DNA of 64,000 nt from NCBI RefSeq assembly GCF_003332275.1, contig NZ_QOVA01000002.1, forward strand, positions 1-64,000, written 5' to 3'. Shown here piece by piece: positions 346 to 46,692 of this stretch. The stretch comes from Edaphovirga cremea. GTDB taxonomy: Bacteria; Pseudomonadota; Gammaproteobacteria; Enterobacterales; Enterobacteriaceae. The translations under genes were made by a program, and so were the position numbers. Each line of letters begins with the position of its first letter. Within the stretch, counting starts at the first letter, position 1. Below the pieces are notes generated by a model that was not told where the DNA came from, did not search any database, and worked only from the letters and a program-made list of their open reading frames with translations.

Positions 346-537
346 TGCTACACGGGTTTCACTACTTTGGGATATTTGAGCAGAAGTCAGTAGAAGAAGC
401 TTATGCATGCAGTGTGGACGTCGCAGAATGCTGATGCTCGTTTAGTGACATGCATTTGGCCGGAACTGGGGCATGTATTTTATAAAGAGCAACAGGATAT
501 GGTATTTCTCTGGCTGGATCACTGGTTGAAGCCATAA
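346..537 (+). pseudogene. Decayed gene fragment, possibly the C-terminus of an alpha/beta hydrolase
   Basis: A 44-codon open frame runs from ATG 403 to TAA 537 and contains the stretch WPELGHVFYKEQ. In a neighbouring frame, codons from about 346 to 395 read like coding sequence (FHYFGIFEQKSVEEAY) and run into the same region, as if one gene had suffered a frameshift. A GH dipeptide followed by a hydrophobic final helix resembles the catalytic-histidine end of alpha/beta hydrolases, but this is a weak family guess. No convincing ribosome binding site is seen. A hairpin with a T-run follows on the same strand, which fits a former gene end. It could also be a meaningless open frame. Confidence 0.3.
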
Positions 538-10908: not shown

Positions 10909-12180
10909 ATGGAACAGTTTATCCATAGTCATCCATCCGAGGCGATGGAGGTGACGGTACTGATTGTAGATGACTCAAAAAGCTATCGGTATTTGATGGC
11001 AACGTCGTTGACGAAATGGGGATTCAAGGTCTGCGAGGCGGAAGATGGAGAGCATGCGTTGCGCCAGTTGGAACAACAACCCGTGCATATCGTGATCAGC
11101 GACTGGGAAATGCCGGTGATGAACGGCGTTGACTTGTGTCGGGCTATCCGCAGCCGCGACTTTGGTCATTATATCTATGTCATCCTGGTGACGGCACGGC
11201 AATCTCTTGAGGATATGCTGACGGGCATGGATGCCGGGGCCGACGATTTTTTATCCAAGCCGGTTAATCAGAGTCAACTTCGCGCGCGATTGCACGCCGC
11301 CGAGCGCGTACTGTTGCTTGAGAATACGTTGGCAGCACGCAACGAAAAAATTTCCTATGCTTATCGGCAAATCGAATCCGATTTGCAGGCTGCAGCAAAA
11401 CTGCAGCATAGCGTTCTGCCAGCCCATAACCTGGTTCTGGAAGGGTTTGAGGCCGATTGGATGTTTCTTCCCTCGGCGTATGTTTCCGGGGACCTACTGA
11501 ATTACTTCTCGCTGGACGAACGGCATATCGCATTTTTCAGTGTTGATGTAGCAGGCCATGGCGTCAGTGCAGCTATGCTTTCTTTGGCCGTCGCGCGGGA
11601 GTTTATGACTGGCCGTATTAGCAACCAGTTGTTGGTGAGCCAAAATGCAGCAGGAGAATGCTTTCCGGTCGCACCCCATCAGGTGGTGAGGGAACTGAAT
11701 CAGCGGTTTTGCATGGATAATGACGAGGTCTTCAGCTATTACACGCTGATTTATGGTGTGATAAATACGACTAATGGTCAGGGGATTCTCTGTCAGGCTG
11801 GGCATCCGACGCCTTTTATTATTCGCGCCGCAGGTGAGCTATGTACTGTCGGACTTGGGGGAATGCCTGTAGGGCTATTTTCTGACGCAGAGTACGAAGA
11901 CTGTCATTTCTCCCTCGACATCGGTGACCGTCTCTATCTGTACAGTGACGGGATTATTGAGTGCGAAAATGACCAGCAGGAACTTTACGGTGAACAACGA
12001 TTACAGCAATTGTTAGGCGAGTATCGGATATTACCTAAAAGTCAGGTATTTGATCGTGTGGAGAATGCGCTGAATATCTGGCGCAGTCGTGAACCCGAAA
12101 ACCGGCAGGAACAGGATATAAAAACCACCCGTTCTTTTAACGATGATATATCCCTGATGGCGATTGAACGTATGAACTAA
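10909..12180 (+). CDS. Response regulator with PP2C-type (RsbU/SpoIIE) phosphatase output
   Basis: The 423-residue cytoplasmic protein has a receiver domain (about 15-130) with acidic pair Asp21/Asp22, phospho-acceptor Asp65 in SDWEMPVMNG, Thr95 and Lys117. A helical linker (about 135-170, ending LQAAAKLQHSVLP) follows, then a PPM/PP2C phosphatase domain of the SpoIIE/RsbU type. The metal-binding aspartates are all seen: VSGDLL (195), VDVAGHG (213), YSDGI and NDDIS near the end. By family logic, phosphorylation of the receiver controls dephosphorylation of a STAS anti-sigma antagonist, and such a gene is next. It lies 38 bases after glgP. The likely upstream kinase is the hybrid kinase at 13109-15805, but this pairing is inferred. 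Confidence 0.9.
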   Translation: MEQFIHSHPSEAMEVTVLIVDDSKSYRYLMATSLTKWGFKVCEAEDGEHALRQLEQQPVHIVISDWEMPVMNGVDLCRAIRSRDFGHYIYVILVTARQSLEDMLTGMDAGADDFLSKPVNQSQLRARLHAAERVLLLENTLAARNEKISYAYRQIESDLQAAAKLQHSVLPAHNLVLEGFEADWMFLPSAYVSGDLLNYFSLDERHIAFFSVDVAGHGVSAAMLSLAVAREFMTGRISNQLLVSQNAAGECFPVAPHQVVRELNQRFCMDNDEVFSYYTLIYGVINTTNGQGILCQAGHPTPFIIRAAGELCTVGLGGMPVGLFSDAEYEDCHFSLDIGDRLYLYSDGIIECENDQQELYGEQRLQQLLGEYRILPKSQVFDRVENALNIWRSREPENRQEQDIKTTRSFNDDISLMAIERMN

Positions 12181-12275: not shown

Positions 12276-12620
12276 ATGAACTTTGATATTCAGTCTGAAA
12301 ATGGGATCGAAATTATTGTTCCGCTGGTACGTCGCCTCGATGCTTCGGTAGCAGGTGTGTTTAAGCAGGAGATACTGTCTTTTATTCAGCAAGGAAAAAA
12401 CGATATCCTGCTGGATTTTAGCCACGTCGACTTTATTGACAGCAGTTGTCTTGGCGCCCTGGTGTCAATACTCAAAACCATCAATGGTAATGGCGATAGC
12501 GAACTGGCGCTTTGCTCACTGAACAGCAATATTCAGCATATGTTCAAGCTGACGCGGATGGACAGAATCTTTACTATTGGTAACGATCGTGCGTCAACGC
12601 TGCAAGTAATGACTCGTTGA
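12276..12620 (+). CDS. STAS-domain anti-anti-sigma factor (RsbV/SpoIIAA-like)
   Basis: This 114-residue single-domain protein has the STAS fold pattern and the signature DFSHVDFIDSSCLGALVSI. Ser56 (in DSSCLG) is the expected site of phosphorylation by an RsbW-type kinase and of dephosphorylation by a PP2C enzyme. Both partners are encoded on either side of it. AAGGAG precedes the ATG. The 95-bp gap from the regulator gene could hold an internal promoter but shows nothing clear. Function by family: when unphosphorylated, it binds and sequesters the kinase. Confidence 0.9.
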   Translation: MNFDIQSENGIEIIVPLVRRLDASVAGVFKQEILSFIQQGKNDILLDFSHVDFIDSSCLGALVSILKTINGNGDSELALCSLNSNIQHMFKLTRMDRIFTIGNDRASTLQVMTR

Positions 12621-12650
12621 AACAAGCTACGATCCATGGGGGGAGGGCGT

Positions 12651-13103
12651 ATGACAAGTGTCAGCACCACACTATGTTTACCGGCATCGCTGGACAGTCT
12701 GGCGGCACTGAGCAATGCGCTCTATGACTTTGTTGCTCCCTTTGCGCTTGATCCCTCTCTGGTTTATCAGGTAGATCTGGCTTCATGTGAAGCATTTACC
12801 AATATCGTCAAACATGCGGTGAAATATGATGAAAATCAGGAGATTATTGTAACTCTTGGCCATGACGGTTGCCATCTGACGTTAACGTTGTCTGATGCGG
12901 GGGTCGCGATCCCAGACAAGATCCTGCGTCAATGGCCGCGCTCATCGAATCTTTTGCCCGACCCACTTCTCCAATCCACCTGGCCAGAAGGTGGAATGGG
13001 GCTGATATTGATTCAGTCCATGATGGACGACATCAATTATAAAACGGAAGATGGGTATAACATTCTTAGATTAACCAAACATTTACCCAATAAAGGTCCA
13101 TAA
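12651..13103 (+). CDS. RsbW-like anti-sigma factor / serine kinase (GHKL ATPase)
   Basis: The 150-residue protein is a stand-alone HATPase_c domain of the RsbW/SpoIIAB type. The N-box is CEAFTNIVKHAV (Glu47, Asn51), the G1 box is SDAGVAIPD (Asp82, Gly84) and the G2 box is EGGMGL (114-118). It should phosphorylate the STAS protein encoded 30 bases upstream and hold a target protein (sigma factor, FlgM-like factor or another effector) when the STAS protein is phosphorylated. ATG 12651 has a GGGGGAGG site; an in-frame ATG at 12636 lies inside that site and is unlikely. The stop codon is five bases from the stop of the convergent kinase gene. Confidence 0.88.
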   Translation: MTSVSTTLCLPASLDSLAALSNALYDFVAPFALDPSLVYQVDLASCEAFTNIVKHAVKYDENQEIIVTLGHDGCHLTLTLSDAGVAIPDKILRQWPRSSNLLPDPLLQSTWPEGGMGLILIQSMMDDINYKTEDGYNILRLTKHLPNKGP

Positions 13104-13108
13104 ACCTT

Positions 13109-15805
13109 TCACTCGGCTTCTTTTACCGTGACGAGCGAGGCCCGTAACTGTTCACACAGTTCATCCAGGCCGATGTTTTGCGCCATAATTCCAGGCAGAT
13201 TGCTTGCCGTGGCAGCCTGTTCTATCTGGCTCAATCTGTATTCCAGCGGTGTACAAACAAAGTGGAGGCATTCACCTTTTAGCTGATGGGCGCTACGCCG
13301 GATAGCTTCAAAGTCCTGTTTTTCTATGGCGGCGTGCAGTAATGCCAAGAGAGAAGGCAACTCATCGATAAATATCATCGCCAGTTGGTTAAATAACGTT
13401 TTATCGTTGTCCAACTGCGCCAAGGCTTGGGTGTAGTCGAAAAGCGGGAGCTCTGGTATTTCCAGGCTGATGTTCCGTACTCGCTGAATTTCAATGGCCA
13501 GATTTTCCAGTAAAATGGGTTTACTGATATAACCGTCAAATCCGTGGGCCAAACACATTTCCTTATCGCCTTTCATGGCGTGTGCGGTCATGGCAATGAT
13601 GGGTTGGTGTCGCCCTTGTCGCTCTTTTTCATTGGCACGAATATGCTGTACGGCCTCAATCCCATCCATTTCAGGCATCTGCAGATCCATCAGAACCACG
13701 TCATAATGGCCTTGCTCCAATTTCTGTAGCGCCAGTTTGCCATTGCCCACGACCTCTGAAGTATGGCCCAGCTTGCGGATGAAGTTGATCGCCAATTGTT
13801 GATTGATGAGATTATCTTCGGCAACCAGAATGTGAGAACGGCTGCCCACTTCCGGCACCGACTCCGTTATTACTGGCAGGGGTTTGTTGGTCTCTTCCAA
13901 TATCAGAGTGCGTATGATGGCCTCTTGCAGTTCGGCGGCATCAATCGGTTTGGTCAGGAAACTCGATACACCGACTTTTTTCAGTACGGCGGTGTCAATC
14001 CGATTGCCCATGGAACTGAGCATGATCAATTTGCATTGGCGCAGGCTGGGCGTGGACATAATCTCCAGCGCTAACGCCATGCCATCCATCTCCGGCATTT
14101 GTGAATCCAGCAGAATCAAGGGAAAGCGCTGACCCGTACCCAGTAACTCCAATGCCGCCCGGCCAGAGTTTACTGTGCGAGGCTTGAACCCCATATTGCG
14201 CAACATATCAAACAGCAGTCGCAGGTTGGTTTCGTTGTCATCCACCGCCAAAATGTCCAGGCCTTTCAGTGCTGCAGGCAATGCGGTTATCGGGCGTAAA
14301 GAGCTCAGATCAGAACCAGTGCTGAGTGGCAGGGAAAAGTAAAAGCAACTCCCGTGCCCCGGTCGGCTGGATACTTGCAATTTCCCCCCCATCATCCCCA
14401 CCAGCCGGGCAGAGATAGTCAGCCCCAAGCCAGTCCCACCATACTTGCGCGTGGTCGAACTGTCCGCCTGACTGAAGGACTCGAAGATGATCGCCTGTTT
14501 ATCCTCAGCAATACCGATGCCGGTATCGGTAATACTGAACGTCAGCATGCCGGGTGGTGAAAGCGAGGGGACGATGCGAAGCACCACTTCGCCTTCATGC
14601 GTGAATTTAAGCGCATTGCCAATCAGATTGGTGAGGATCTGCCGCAAACGAAGCGCATCTGTGTGGAGCGTCAATGGGACATCTGGATCGATATCCACAA
14701 TCAACTCAGGCCCCTTTTCTGAGAATTTGGACATCAGGGGCCGGGTGATTTCATGAATCAAGGTCCGCAGAGTGAAGTCCTCTGGCTCCAGGGCGATTTT
14801 CCCCGCCTCAATTTTTGAAAAATCCAGGATATCATCAATGATCTTCAGCAACGCCCGTGCGGAGGAATACACCATATTAATGTAGTCGCGTTGTTCACTG
14901 CTCAGGTTGGTCTCCAGACACAACTGGGTCATCCCCAGAATACCGTTCATCGGCGTCCGTATTTCATGGCTCATATTGGCGAGGAATTCACTCTTGGCCT
15001 TATTGGCCGCATGGGCAAGCTCGACGGACTGCTGGGATGAGACTTCGGCCTCTTTGCGCTCAGTGATATCCTGCAAAGTACCGATTGCCCGCTGTACCTC
15101 GCCTTGTATGCCAAGACTGATGATTTGCCCCTGAATCAACGCCCAGCGGTAGTCGCCGCCACGGTGTTTGACGCGAACTTCACAGTCAAACATGGGCAAA
15201 ACCGCGCTGTTGGCCTGATGAAGGCAATGCAGCACCTGCGGTAAATCATCGGGATGAACCACCTGTTGCCAAAGGGCTGAGGTAAATACATTACTCTCGC
15301 GACCCACGCCGAGTAGCAGTAACAGCGCATCGTTAACCTGTAAGCGATCCTGGGCACATTCCCAATCCCACACGCCAATATGAGACGTTTCTGCCGCCAA
15401 AATGAAATCGTTATGCAGCATCTGCCAGGAGTTGGCGATCCTGGCATAATGGGTGATATCGGTATGCAGGCTGACAATACCGCCATCAGGTATACGGTGA
15501 TGTTGCAGATAAAGAGTGCGCTCTGGCAGGTTACACACTTCATGATAGCTCTCTAGCCGATAGTTATTGAGCGTTGCTTCAGCCAGTTGTGACTTATTTT
15601 GCAGGTGTGGAGAGGTAGGGTTGGAGTTGATAACGGAATCGATGACGTCCTTCAATGAAATACCTTGCTGAAGATGCCCTTTTATTCCGGGGTAGTATTC
15701 TTCCACCTTACTATTCCAGTAGCACAACCGCTCTTCCTGGTCATACACCATCAGTGCAGTCTGGGTGGAATCCAATGCGGATAACAAAAGGTTATTTTTC
15801 ATCAT
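13109..15805 (-). CDS. Hybrid sensor histidine kinase (PAS-PAS-HisKA-HATPase-REC-REC-HPt)
   Basis: The 898-residue kinase has no membrane segment, so it senses an internal signal or receives one from a partner protein. Domains in order: PAS (about 10-120), PAS/PAC (135-250), HisKA with His280 in [13 protein letters not shown], HATPase_c (380-495, with DTGIGI and GGTGLGL), receiver 1 (Asp567), receiver 2 (Asp707) and HPt with His840 in RSAHQLKGE. All phosphorelay residues are intact. The start ATG at 15805 has GGGAGGT, which sits against the stop codon of the upstream globin-like gene nine bases away, so the two are almost certainly co-translated. The final HPt could pass phosphate to the convergent response regulator/PP2C protein; this is inferred from context. 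Confidence 0.92.
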
Positions 15806-15814
15806 GACCTCCCT

Positions 15815-16246
15815 TTAATTGGCATCATGATGCAGTTCTGCCTGGCGCCGCATGAATTCCAGCCCGGGAGCCATAAAAATCGCCCACGCCGTGAGTATCT
15901 CCTCATCACACAAAGGATCCAGATCGCGTACGGTTTGCAACACCGCCCGGCGCCAGTAGGCAAAAACGGAAGCAGGTAGATTGAGGCCTTGCTCATTTTG
16001 TTCCCTGGCGACATGTTCAAGGTAGTCGGAGGCGATGTAGGTGGTAGCGACAGACAGCATGTAGAAAAATGATTTATAGATTATTTTCTGCCGTTCCTCA
16101 TGCATTTGAGGGCTCGGCAGGTCATTAAGCTCCAGAGTGCTTTCGATAAACAGCGAATAGAAATGGGAGAAGAACGTTTCCCCTTGATCCGCCGCAGTAA
16201 TGCGGTCATAGCTGTTATTGAACAACACTTCATAATTTGTGCTCAT
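15815..16246 (-). CDS. Globin-fold protein, probably heme-free sensor partner of the hybrid kinase
   Basis: The 143-residue protein has the helix pattern of bacterial single-domain globins: FFSHFYSLF in helix B, RQKIIYKSFFYML in E, then YLEHVAREQNEQGLNLP and a final W/F-rich helical half (AYWRRAVLQTVRDLDP, LTAWAIFMAPGLEFM). Aligned from memory with such globins, the proximal F8 histidine falls on Gln83 (REQNEQG). The nearest histidine, His78, is over one turn away. Loss of the heme ligand recalls the heme-free globin domain of RsbR in the Bacillus stressosome. AAGGAAAA precedes ATG 16246. It is the first gene of a two-gene operon with the kinase. The family assignment is by pattern, not by search. 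A remnant of a second copy lies at 21696-21763. Confidence 0.65.
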   Translation of the reverse strand: MSTNYEVLFNNSYDRITAADQGETFFSHFYSLFIESTLELNDLPSPQMHEERQKIIYKSFFYMLSVATTYIASDYLEHVAREQNEQGLNLPASVFAYWRRAVLQTVRDLDPLCDEEILTAWAIFMAPGLEFMRRQAELHHDAN

Positions 16247-21695: not shown

Positions 21696-21763
21696 TTGTT
21701 CCCGGGCGATATGCTCAAGATAGTCGGAGGCGACGTAGGTGGTGGCAACTGACAGCATGTAGA
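21696..21763 (-). pseudogene. Remnant of a second globin-like gene
   Basis: 68 bases align without gaps to 15998-16065 of the intact globin-like gene, with 8 mismatches by my count (about 88% identity). Translated, they give YMLSVATTYVASDYLEHIAREQ, against residues 62-83 of the intact protein. Six of the eight differences are silent and two are Ile/Val swaps, so this copy diverged under protein-level selection before being broken. Similarity stops abruptly on both sides. The Gln at the proximal heme position is shared. Confidence 0.85.
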
Positions 21764-21868: not shown

Positions 21869-21944
21869 TGGTGCCCGGACTCGGAATCGAACCAAGGACA
21901 CGGGGATTTTCAATCCCCTGCTCTACCGACTGAGCTATCCGGGC
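21869..21944 (-). tRNA. pheU: tRNA-Phe (GAA)
   Basis: The 76-nt cloverleaf on the minus strand runs from GCCCGGATAGCTCAG to GAGTCCGGGCACCA, with anticodon GAA at 21909-21911 and an encoded CCA. It is next to yjdC-dsbD-cutA, as pheU is in E. coli. tRNA-Phe genes are common integration sites, and foreign-looking DNA lies directly beside its 3' end here. Confidence 0.97.
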
Positions 21945-45996: not shown

Positions 45997-46024
45997 TTGC
46001 GGCAGAAAGGATTTCTCGTATAAT
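45997..46024 (+). promoter_or_regulatory. Promoter of the tRNA-Gly operon
   Basis: TTGCGG at 45997-46002 and a perfect TATAAT at 46019-46024, 16 bases apart, are followed by a GC-rich discriminator (GCGCACCCCG). That combination is typical of stringently controlled stable-RNA promoters. The first tRNA-Gly starts 41 bases after the -10 box. Confidence 0.85.
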
Positions 46025-46065
46025 GCGCACCCCGTACCGATACGAATTTTGTACTGGTGCGCAGG

Positions 46066-46141
<76 letters not shown>

Positions 46142-46194
46142 AGATTCAAACGTCGCTTTTAGCGGCTCAATGAAAAATAGAAGTACCATGCGAC

Positions 46195-46270
<76 letters not shown>

Positions 46271-46316
46271 AAATTCAAATGCTGTATTTACAGCAGGGTG
46301 CACCAAGCATCTCAAT

Positions 46317-46392
<76 letters not shown>

Positions 46393-46692
46393 ATTTTCAT
46401 ACTCATCCAGATTCCTCTTCTCTCCCTGAAGAGATTGTTCATATTGTGTCTTTCCTACATGCTGTAGTACTTTCTTGAACAGACTTATCCACAGGTTTCG
46501 TTGTTTAATTGACCTGTATACTTTTTGCGCTATTCCTATTGTTAAAAAATAACGTGCTGATTTTGTTATTAATATTTTTATATTAAAACGTTATGACGAT
46601 CACTTGCTCTTTTTGTTGCAGTTGATAGACAAAGCATTTTTATTTTTATGCACAGACGGGGGATAAAAAGTGTAACGGGGATAACTCGTTTT
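46393..46692. promoter_or_regulatory. datA: datA-like DnaA-titration locus between tRNA-Gly and queG
   Basis: In E. coli the datA locus, which stimulates hydrolysis of DnaA-ATP after initiation, lies between glyVXY and queG. The same gap here carries TTATCCACA at 46485-46493, a perfect DnaA box, and TTATGCACA at 46646-46654, which fits TTWTNCACA. Both point the same way and lie about 160 bases apart. A very AT-rich stretch (about 46540-46605) between them could hold an IHF site, but I found no clear consensus match. TTATCCCCG on the minus strand near 46677 is a weaker box. No gene is visible in these 300 bases. Confidence 0.7.

Follow-up and report, generated by a model that had tools for sequence, protein, structure and literature searches.

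A stand-alone globin, predicted to be heme-free, as the likely regulatory partner of a hybrid histidine kinase in Edaphovirga cremea

What does a globin without heme ligands do beside a histidine kinase? The 64,000-nucleotide stretch of Edaphovirga cremea DNA analyzed here (the window; contig C12 of the 5.19-Mb genome G000) raises this question with a gene for a globin-fold protein of 143 amino acids (aa), which ends nine bases ahead of a gene for a hybrid histidine kinase on the same (-) strand. The two genes converge on + strand genes for an alpha-glucan phosphorylase, a response regulator with a SpoIIE/PP2C phosphatase (RR-PP2C), a STAS protein and an RsbW-like protein. An earlier note on this DNA had described both the nine-base spacing to a membrane-free kinase and the convergent PP2C/STAS/RsbW module. 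The open reading frames (ORFs), Pfam domains and hydropathy analysis, in which no sensor-side membrane helix was seen in the kinase, bear this out, and the signature residues of the linked module are intact.

Heme-free globins are known mainly as parts of larger sensors such as RsbR. NosP-kinase operons represent the type with a stand-alone sensor and a kinase. Our favored reading, held with slightly better than even confidence, is that the window encodes a stand-alone globin, predicted to be heme-free, which likely serves as a regulatory subunit and tunes a hybrid kinase belonging to a partner switch of the HsbR type.

Heme-pocket residues and constraint in the globin family

Structure prediction, fold match and profile alignment all assigned a globin fold to the 143-aa protein, in agreement with the bacterial globin pattern seen earlier; no Pfam family was matched. 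Gln83, which the earlier note had placed where the F8 His is expected, does align to the His column of PA3967 (PDB 1tu9), and the loss is clade-wide. The CD1, E7 and F8 positions were assigned by alignment, with labels that we take to follow the usual globin numbering. All three pocket residues are changed in the window globin, to Pro, Arg and Gln, respectively.

A tree of 114 globin sequences (midpoint root, long branches flagged, with rows below 135 aa and P0046, P0048, P0076 and P0079 dropped) contains an enterobacterial clade of 67 rows with 100/100 support and one Vibrio row inside. The 47 distant rows used as outgroup, which include Burkholderia, Marinobacter, Motilimonas and Simiduia, have F8 His throughout (47/47), CD1 Phe in 44 and E7 Gln in 45, the other two having E7 His. 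Within the enterobacterial clade, F8 is Q in 51 rows, S in 6, G in 4, H in 3 and R, C or N in one each, and E7 takes many residues. The window's own group of 18 rows has F8 Gln in 17, CD1 Pro in 14 and either Gln (15) or Arg (3) at E7. CD1 is Phe in all 36 rows of an Enterobacter-type group, which also holds Chimaeribacter and P0024. We further compared 28 loci from named genomes (tblastn table) with 30 loci with unlinked globins as contrast, and F8 is His in all 30 of the latter, some of which may repeat rows of the tree.

The three F8-His rows of the clade are scattered. P0024 branches first (98/95 support for the rest), P0014 falls among the Serratia rows, and L014 (Chimaeribacter coloradensis) lies beside C. 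californicus and C. arupi, both of which have Gln. From this distribution, F8 His was most likely ancestral and then lost, and the site now drifts. The two inner rows, P0014 and L014, may be survivors or reversions.

His residues are found at positions 28, 49, 78, 139 and 140 of the window globin. There is no other conserved His that could stand in for the one at F8, and position 28 is Ala in the Enterobacter-type members. Since F8 drifts in the clade, is His in the whole outgroup and has no conserved His to replace it, heme loss in the window globin is strongly predicted. The window model has a predicted local distance difference test (pLDDT) score of 72-78 in blocks 41-50 and 61-90, compared with 92-95 in the pocket of the His-bearing P0054. 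This weaker pocket confidence would fit heme loss and is only suggestive, because the underlying alignments differ.

We consider it quite unlikely that the globin still binds heme, weakly or by a non-standard ligand, and senses gas, redox or heme. Such a protein would be in line with the retained fold, the 3 of 67 clade members with F8 His, the CD1 Phe of the Enterobacter-type group and the description of a site-swapped globin in which Lys and His are the ligands (PMC4476040). It is harder to reconcile with seven different residues at F8 and many at E7 in a clade where other sites are invariant, with the missing substitute His and with a window protein in which the usual residues at CD1, E7 and F8 are all lost; the pLDDT contrast, with the reservation just given, points in the same direction.

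The globin is under purifying selection. Its ratio of nonsynonymous to synonymous substitution rates (dN/dS) is 0.086 against L005 (Serratia oryzae) and 0.090 against L006 (Serratia sp. Ag1), the closest named relatives by globin among the loci compared, and 0.107 and 0.139 against L008 and L010 (dS was saturated for L007). The same L005 and L006 comparisons gave 0.06-0.08 for STAS, 0.06-0.08 for RR-PP2C, 0.12 for the kinase and 0.18-0.23 for RsbW, and the globin falls within this range of neighboring signaling genes (0.06 to 0.23). Such constraint, together with the newly invariant sites described below, makes it highly unlikely that the gene is a vestige drifting to loss once its heme function had been given up. 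A vestige might be suspected from the 68-base remnant of a second globin copy near a tRNA-Phe gene, from P0046 and P0048, which appear frame-shifted, and from L032, in which globin and kinase are both broken; L032, however, shows numerous disrupted frames from one end of the locus to the other and may be poor sequence.

Several sites at which the heme-type outgroup varies or has another residue show little or no variation among the enterobacterial rows, and these lie in the E, G and H helices and the GH corner. They comprise F61, M63 and V66 late in the E helix, R99 and L103 in the G helix, P111 in the GH corner and, most prominently in the H helix, T119, A122, A126, L129, E130, R133, R134, Q135 and E137, although part of this new conservation reflects the younger clade (effective 14.6 vs 33.0 outgroup sequences). 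In the same clade sequences F8, E7 and partly CD1 drift while the G/H sites stay fixed. The simplest reading of this alignment pattern would be a G/H-helix face that was fixed for a protein partner.

Locus composition and the globin-kinase pair

The fullest loci are those of Serratia marcescens MSU97 and S. nevei (L008 and L009). They hold OpgC, a cellulose-synthase-like glycosyltransferase, three DUF3131 proteins, the globin, the kinase, a GH2 glycosidase, GAF-GGDEF-EAL and GAF-PAS-GGDEF proteins, RsbW, STAS and RR-PP2C (locus Pfam domains were checked on proteins of L005, L008, L013 and L017). The exopolysaccharide set (BcsA-like glycosyltransferase, DUF3131, GH2) is found around globin and kinase in L008, L009, L011-L027, L029, L031 and L032, and OpgC is present in all of these except L023, whose stretch starts inside the glycosyltransferase. 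The glycosyltransferase occurs in 22 of the 28 loci (that of L017 matches the cellulose synthase PDB 7lby, E 6.6e-28) and GGDEF and EAL genes in 4. L005 and L006 are without exopolysaccharide genes but still have the phosphorylase as well as the GGDEF and EAL genes. The window, L007 and L010 retain no more than globin, kinase, RsbW, STAS, RR-PP2C and phosphorylase; in L007 and L010 only short flanks (2.0 and 2.6 kb) were available where exopolysaccharide genes would be expected to begin. A 299-aa protein without Pfam match adjoins OpgC and RR-PP2C in L017 (1393-2292) and has relatives in 17 of the 28 loci.

A kinase of the window type lies near the globin in 27 of the 28 loci and is present in pieces in the 28th (L032). 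Measured from the globin stop, the nearest possible kinase start falls at -11 to +10 bases in 22 of the 23 loci from enterobacteria and Vibrio; the two overlap in 13 and are at most 10 bases apart in another 9, and the length filter missed the 23rd, L007. This measure picks the nearest possible start within 60 bases and is biased to short distances. Of the 28 loci, 25 have RR-PP2C, 20 have STAS and 10 have RsbW (L012 doubtful, 18.6 bits), the latter two being under-counted because many locus stretches end just past RR-PP2C. The PA3967-type unlinked globins differ from the window in this linkage, as RR-PP2C, STAS and RsbW were each matched in 0 of 30 stretches compared around these His-type globins (E 1e-3).

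The pair also persists where either set of neighbors is missing. L091/G631 has the globin-kinase pair, exopolysaccharide genes and GH2 together, with no RR-PP2C, STAS or RsbW in the stretch compared and no RR-PP2C match in the genome at E 1e-20, and the window, L005, L006, L007 and L010 keep the pair without adjacent exopolysaccharide genes. The kinase is therefore favored, and most likely, as the globin's partner. One could instead suppose that the true partner is the RR-PP2C/STAS/RsbW arm or the exopolysaccharide machinery and that kinase adjacency in enterobacteria means co-expression. This would agree with the position of the globin directly after the third DUF3131 gene in the enterobacterial exopolysaccharide loci and with Burkholderia, where it directly follows RsbW (L028, L030) or DUF3131 genes (L029, L031), with the kinase on the opposite strand. 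We nevertheless hold it to be unlikely in view of the loci in which the pair stands without one or the other set, and of the overlapping or closely spaced gene ends.

Apart from the bias of the start measure and the youth of the clade, some further points weigh against the kinase-tuning, heme-free globin that we favor. The Burkholderia globin keeps F8 His and lies outside a kinase operon, and the kinase therefore need not be the globin's original partner. The kinase-core tree does not join the enterobacterial and Burkholderia kinases in a single clade. The two PAS domains of the kinase may themselves be the real sensor. Finally, the recurrence of F8 His in P0014, P0024 and L014 means that heme binding may not be lost everywhere.

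The Burkholderia kinases examined (L028, L029), which occupy the position of the soluble kinase of enterobacteria, each carry a CHASE domain together with two membrane helices. With the kinase core, the four Burkholderia kinases scored 298-299 bits and six other kinases of the E. cremea genome at most 215. Because the Burkholderia globin within the locus still has F8 His, the comparison suggests an order of events in which the globin would have been recruited to the locus with heme, then paired with a soluble kinase, and only then lost heme.

Other globin-kinase arrangements were seen as well. A candidate natural globin fusion, a 920-aa frame (G054), was rejected because the frame lies antisense to another long gene before it runs on into a small globin. 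In the unlinked locus L071 (6461-10244), an F8-His globin lies 1.3 kb from an HPt-bearing hybrid kinase, with two small genes between. This kinase is less similar to the window type (176-196 bits), is the only one in the 30 unlinked loci and possibly represents an independent globin-kinase pairing. The F8-His globin of L076 (9847-11843) has an EAL-domain match (187 bits) that begins 0.2 kb away, a possible link to cyclic di-GMP (c-di-GMP). GGDEF/EAL matches of 80-187 bits in the unlinked L075, L076, L078, L084 and L096 were provisionally taken as common domains and not as counterparts of the linked genes. Counts across the order (globin in 19 of 295, PP2C in 36 of 295) mix paralogs and were not used as evidence.

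Predicted partner switch, known systems and possible outputs

The predicted phosphorelay residues are all present (His280, Asp567, Asp707, His840 and Asp65), as are the RR-PP2C motifs SGD (193), DVAGHG (213), SDG (346) and FNDD (410). RR-PP2C aligns to PDB 3es2/3eq2, a 'probable two-component response regulator' (E 1.5e-25). Asp55-Ser56-Ser57 of the STAS protein aligns with SpoIIAA-type antagonists and TM1442 and marks the predicted phospho-serine. A search of the genome with this protein gave one match, itself.

According to our model, globin and kinase would be made together and bind, with the globin most likely using its newly invariant G/H-helix face to contact the kinase in its PAS region. 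Gas sensing at a heme iron has probably been given up; candidate cues are a lipid in the emptied pocket, redox state or the protein partner itself. Phosphate would pass from His280 of the kinase through a REC domain to His840 of HPt and on to Asp65 of RR-PP2C. By analogy with HsbR-HsbA, the phosphorylated regulator would activate its phosphatase, and the STAS protein would be dephosphorylated by this phosphatase and phosphorylated by the RsbW-like ATPase.

The cascade from globin through kinase, HPt and RR/PP2C to STAS had been proposed as a new combination of signaling systems. This claim has to be given up, as HptB-HsbR-HsbA of Pseudomonas aeruginosa is described as just such a kinase-HPt-RR/PP2C-STAS cascade (PMC6482189; PMC5085249) and SypE-SypA is likewise published. 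According to the same accounts, the STAS protein of Pseudomonas binds FlgM when unphosphorylated and switches to the diguanylate cyclase HsbD when phosphorylated (PMC6482189; PMC5085249). What the window shares with HsbR-HsbA, Shewanella CrsR-CrsA and Vibrio fischeri SypE-SypA is a STAS switch controlled by a response regulator, for which the outputs described are a diguanylate cyclase, a sigma factor or polysaccharide. HsbR-HsbA-type traits present in the window are the receiver and PP2C Asp motifs, a STAS protein with Ser in the place of the phospho-acceptor and a GHKL kinase gene. HsbR, however, combines PP2C and kinase domains in one protein, whereas the window has separate PP2C and RsbW-like genes, an HPt inside the kinase and an added globin.

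The comparison with the RsbR stressosome proteins, also made in the earlier note, stands in part. In both cases a globin fold without heme ligands lies upstream of a STAS partner switch, with heme-binding cousins reported in Vibrio (PMC4976288). RsbR, though, is described as having a C-terminal STAS domain and working with RsbS and RsbT (PMC4976288), while the window globin is encoded on its own, next to the gene for a two-component hybrid kinase. Stressosome membership was rejected because there is no globin-STAS fusion. The in vivo signals of RsbR-type heme-free globins are described as unknown in that account (PMC4976288).

As regards gene order, HnoX-HahK of V. fischeri comes closer. Here a stand-alone small sensor gene immediately precedes a kinase that controls polysaccharide and biofilm, the syp polysaccharide being described as under the control of HnoX-HahK, SypF and SypE, which act on SypA (PMC12369376); in the window a small sensor-type gene likewise directly precedes the hybrid kinase gene. 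HnoX is a nitric oxide-binding protein of another family, whereas the window protein is a globin without heme ligands and not an H-NOX or NosP domain. The window kinase does match the NCBIfam near_NosP model, below its cut-off. Globins that control kinases are also described for AfGcHK and the published fused globin kinase NmpU (PMC6211767). In these the protoglobin domain is fused and, in AfGcHK, binds heme; the window globin, by contrast, stands alone. The literature search also turned up RsfSR-SigF of Mycobacterium smegmatis. In the open-access literature nothing was found that describes a stand-alone globin without heme in a pairing with a kinase or partner switch. A heme-stripped stand-alone globin as a likely kinase partner, with His-bearing relatives in its family and in its locus type, is a novel variation on such systems.

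Judged by gene list only, the accessory 'block 3b' of Klebsiella pneumoniae is the same locus type, with no tested function assigned in the paper as far as its text goes (PMC12974863). The main text of that paper does not contain the word globin, and the window locus is without exopolysaccharide genes. The globin may be an overlooked component of a widespread accessory exopolysaccharide locus. His-bearing and His-less forms are closely related, some within one genus (Chimaeribacter), and the change can therefore be followed stepwise with natural proteins. The pairing supplies a defined candidate partner, the hybrid kinase, for measuring the globin's effect, and the family could show by what route a heme protein becomes a different kind of switch.

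Since exopolysaccharide and c-di-GMP genes surround the module in relatives, their control is the likely ancestral output, and the GGDEF gene that adjoins RsbW in the more complete loci would be a fitting counterpart of HsbD. In the E. cremea genome a linked diguanylate cyclase was rejected, the GAF-PAS-GGDEF protein of L005 having only partial, domain-level matches. The cellulose-synthase-like protein has 34% matches in two longer frames (703 and 882 aa), and a DUF3131 search gave no match in this genome nor in any of 14 control genomes, which does not show absence. The nearest candidate output would be the glycogen-phosphorylase paralog or a sigma factor to which the RsbW-like protein binds. 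This phosphorylase is the only linked enzyme seen in the window genome, is 47% and 45% identical to the other two paralogs of the genome, scores below the curated GlgP and MalP cut-offs and is also found beside RR-PP2C in L005, L006, L007 and L010. Being on the same strand and only 38 bases apart, the two genes probably share one transcript.

A bolder reading, which we offer only tentatively, makes the stand-alone pseudo-globin a new class of kinase-controlling subunit. A heme globin would have joined an exopolysaccharide-control locus while it retained its heme ligands, as in the Burkholderia type; enterobacteria would then have abandoned the pocket, and the G/H face would have become the fixed protein interface of a heme-free allosteric switch acting on a two-component/partner-switch cascade. 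The E. cremea cascade would then have outlived its exopolysaccharide and c-di-GMP genes, maybe re-wired to the phosphorylase paralog.

Separately, L023 (10516-15173) has GlgX and TreY genes after GH2, which again ties the locus to alpha-glucan metabolism, and an alpha-amylase-family gene follows in L029 (Burkholderia).

Gene layout and other features of the window

Table 1. Features of the globin-kinase locus in the window, with the domains and residues assigned to them.
Feature	Position	Strand	Basis
Globin-fold protein, 143 aa	15815..16246	-	ORF call, fold prediction and fold match, profile alignment, dN/dS
Globin Pro44, CD1 position	16115-16117	-	Alignment
Globin Arg52, E7 position	16091-16093	-	Alignment
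Globin Gln83, F8 position, codon CAA	15998-16000	-	Alignment
Soluble hybrid histidine kinase, 898 aa	13109..15805	-	Pfam domains, residue check, hydropathy
Kinase domains: PAS_7 11-122, PAS_3 155-243, HisKA 270-335 (His280), HATPase 383-495			
Kinase domains, C-terminal part: REC1 (Asp567), REC2 659-771 (Asp707), HPt 808-889 (His840)			
HPt domain of kinase, predicted phospho-acceptor His840	13139..13384	-	Pfam Hpt 9.8e-10
Response regulator (Asp65) + SpoIIE/PP2C phosphatase (RR-PP2C)	10909..12180	+	Pfam, motifs, PDB alignment
STAS anti-sigma-factor antagonist	12276..12620	+	TIGR00377 above cut-off
RsbW/SpoIIAB-like GHKL serine kinase / anti-sigma factor	12636..13103	+	PF13581 1.1e-23; PDB 6m36 RsbW E 3.1e-7
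Third alpha-glucan phosphorylase paralog of genome	8429..10870	+	38 bases ahead of RR-PP2C gene
Globin-gene remnant, 68 bases, 88% identical	21696..21763	-	Beside tRNA-Phe (21869-21944)

The globin-gene remnant lies ∼5.4 kb from the intact globin gene, matches residues 58-91 at the protein level and is the scar left by another copy of the accessory module, a second or an earlier one. In DNA comparisons with ten relatives, the matches cover the module and the remnant and do not include the genes on its globin side; no DNA match was found in E. coli genomes. No clear account of an insertion emerges from the remnant, and the tRNAs near it differ. Elsewhere in the window (46023-46478), a frame with a tandem GNSSVGRARPCQGRGREFESRFPLQ-like peptide repeat looks like a tRNA gene array read as protein.

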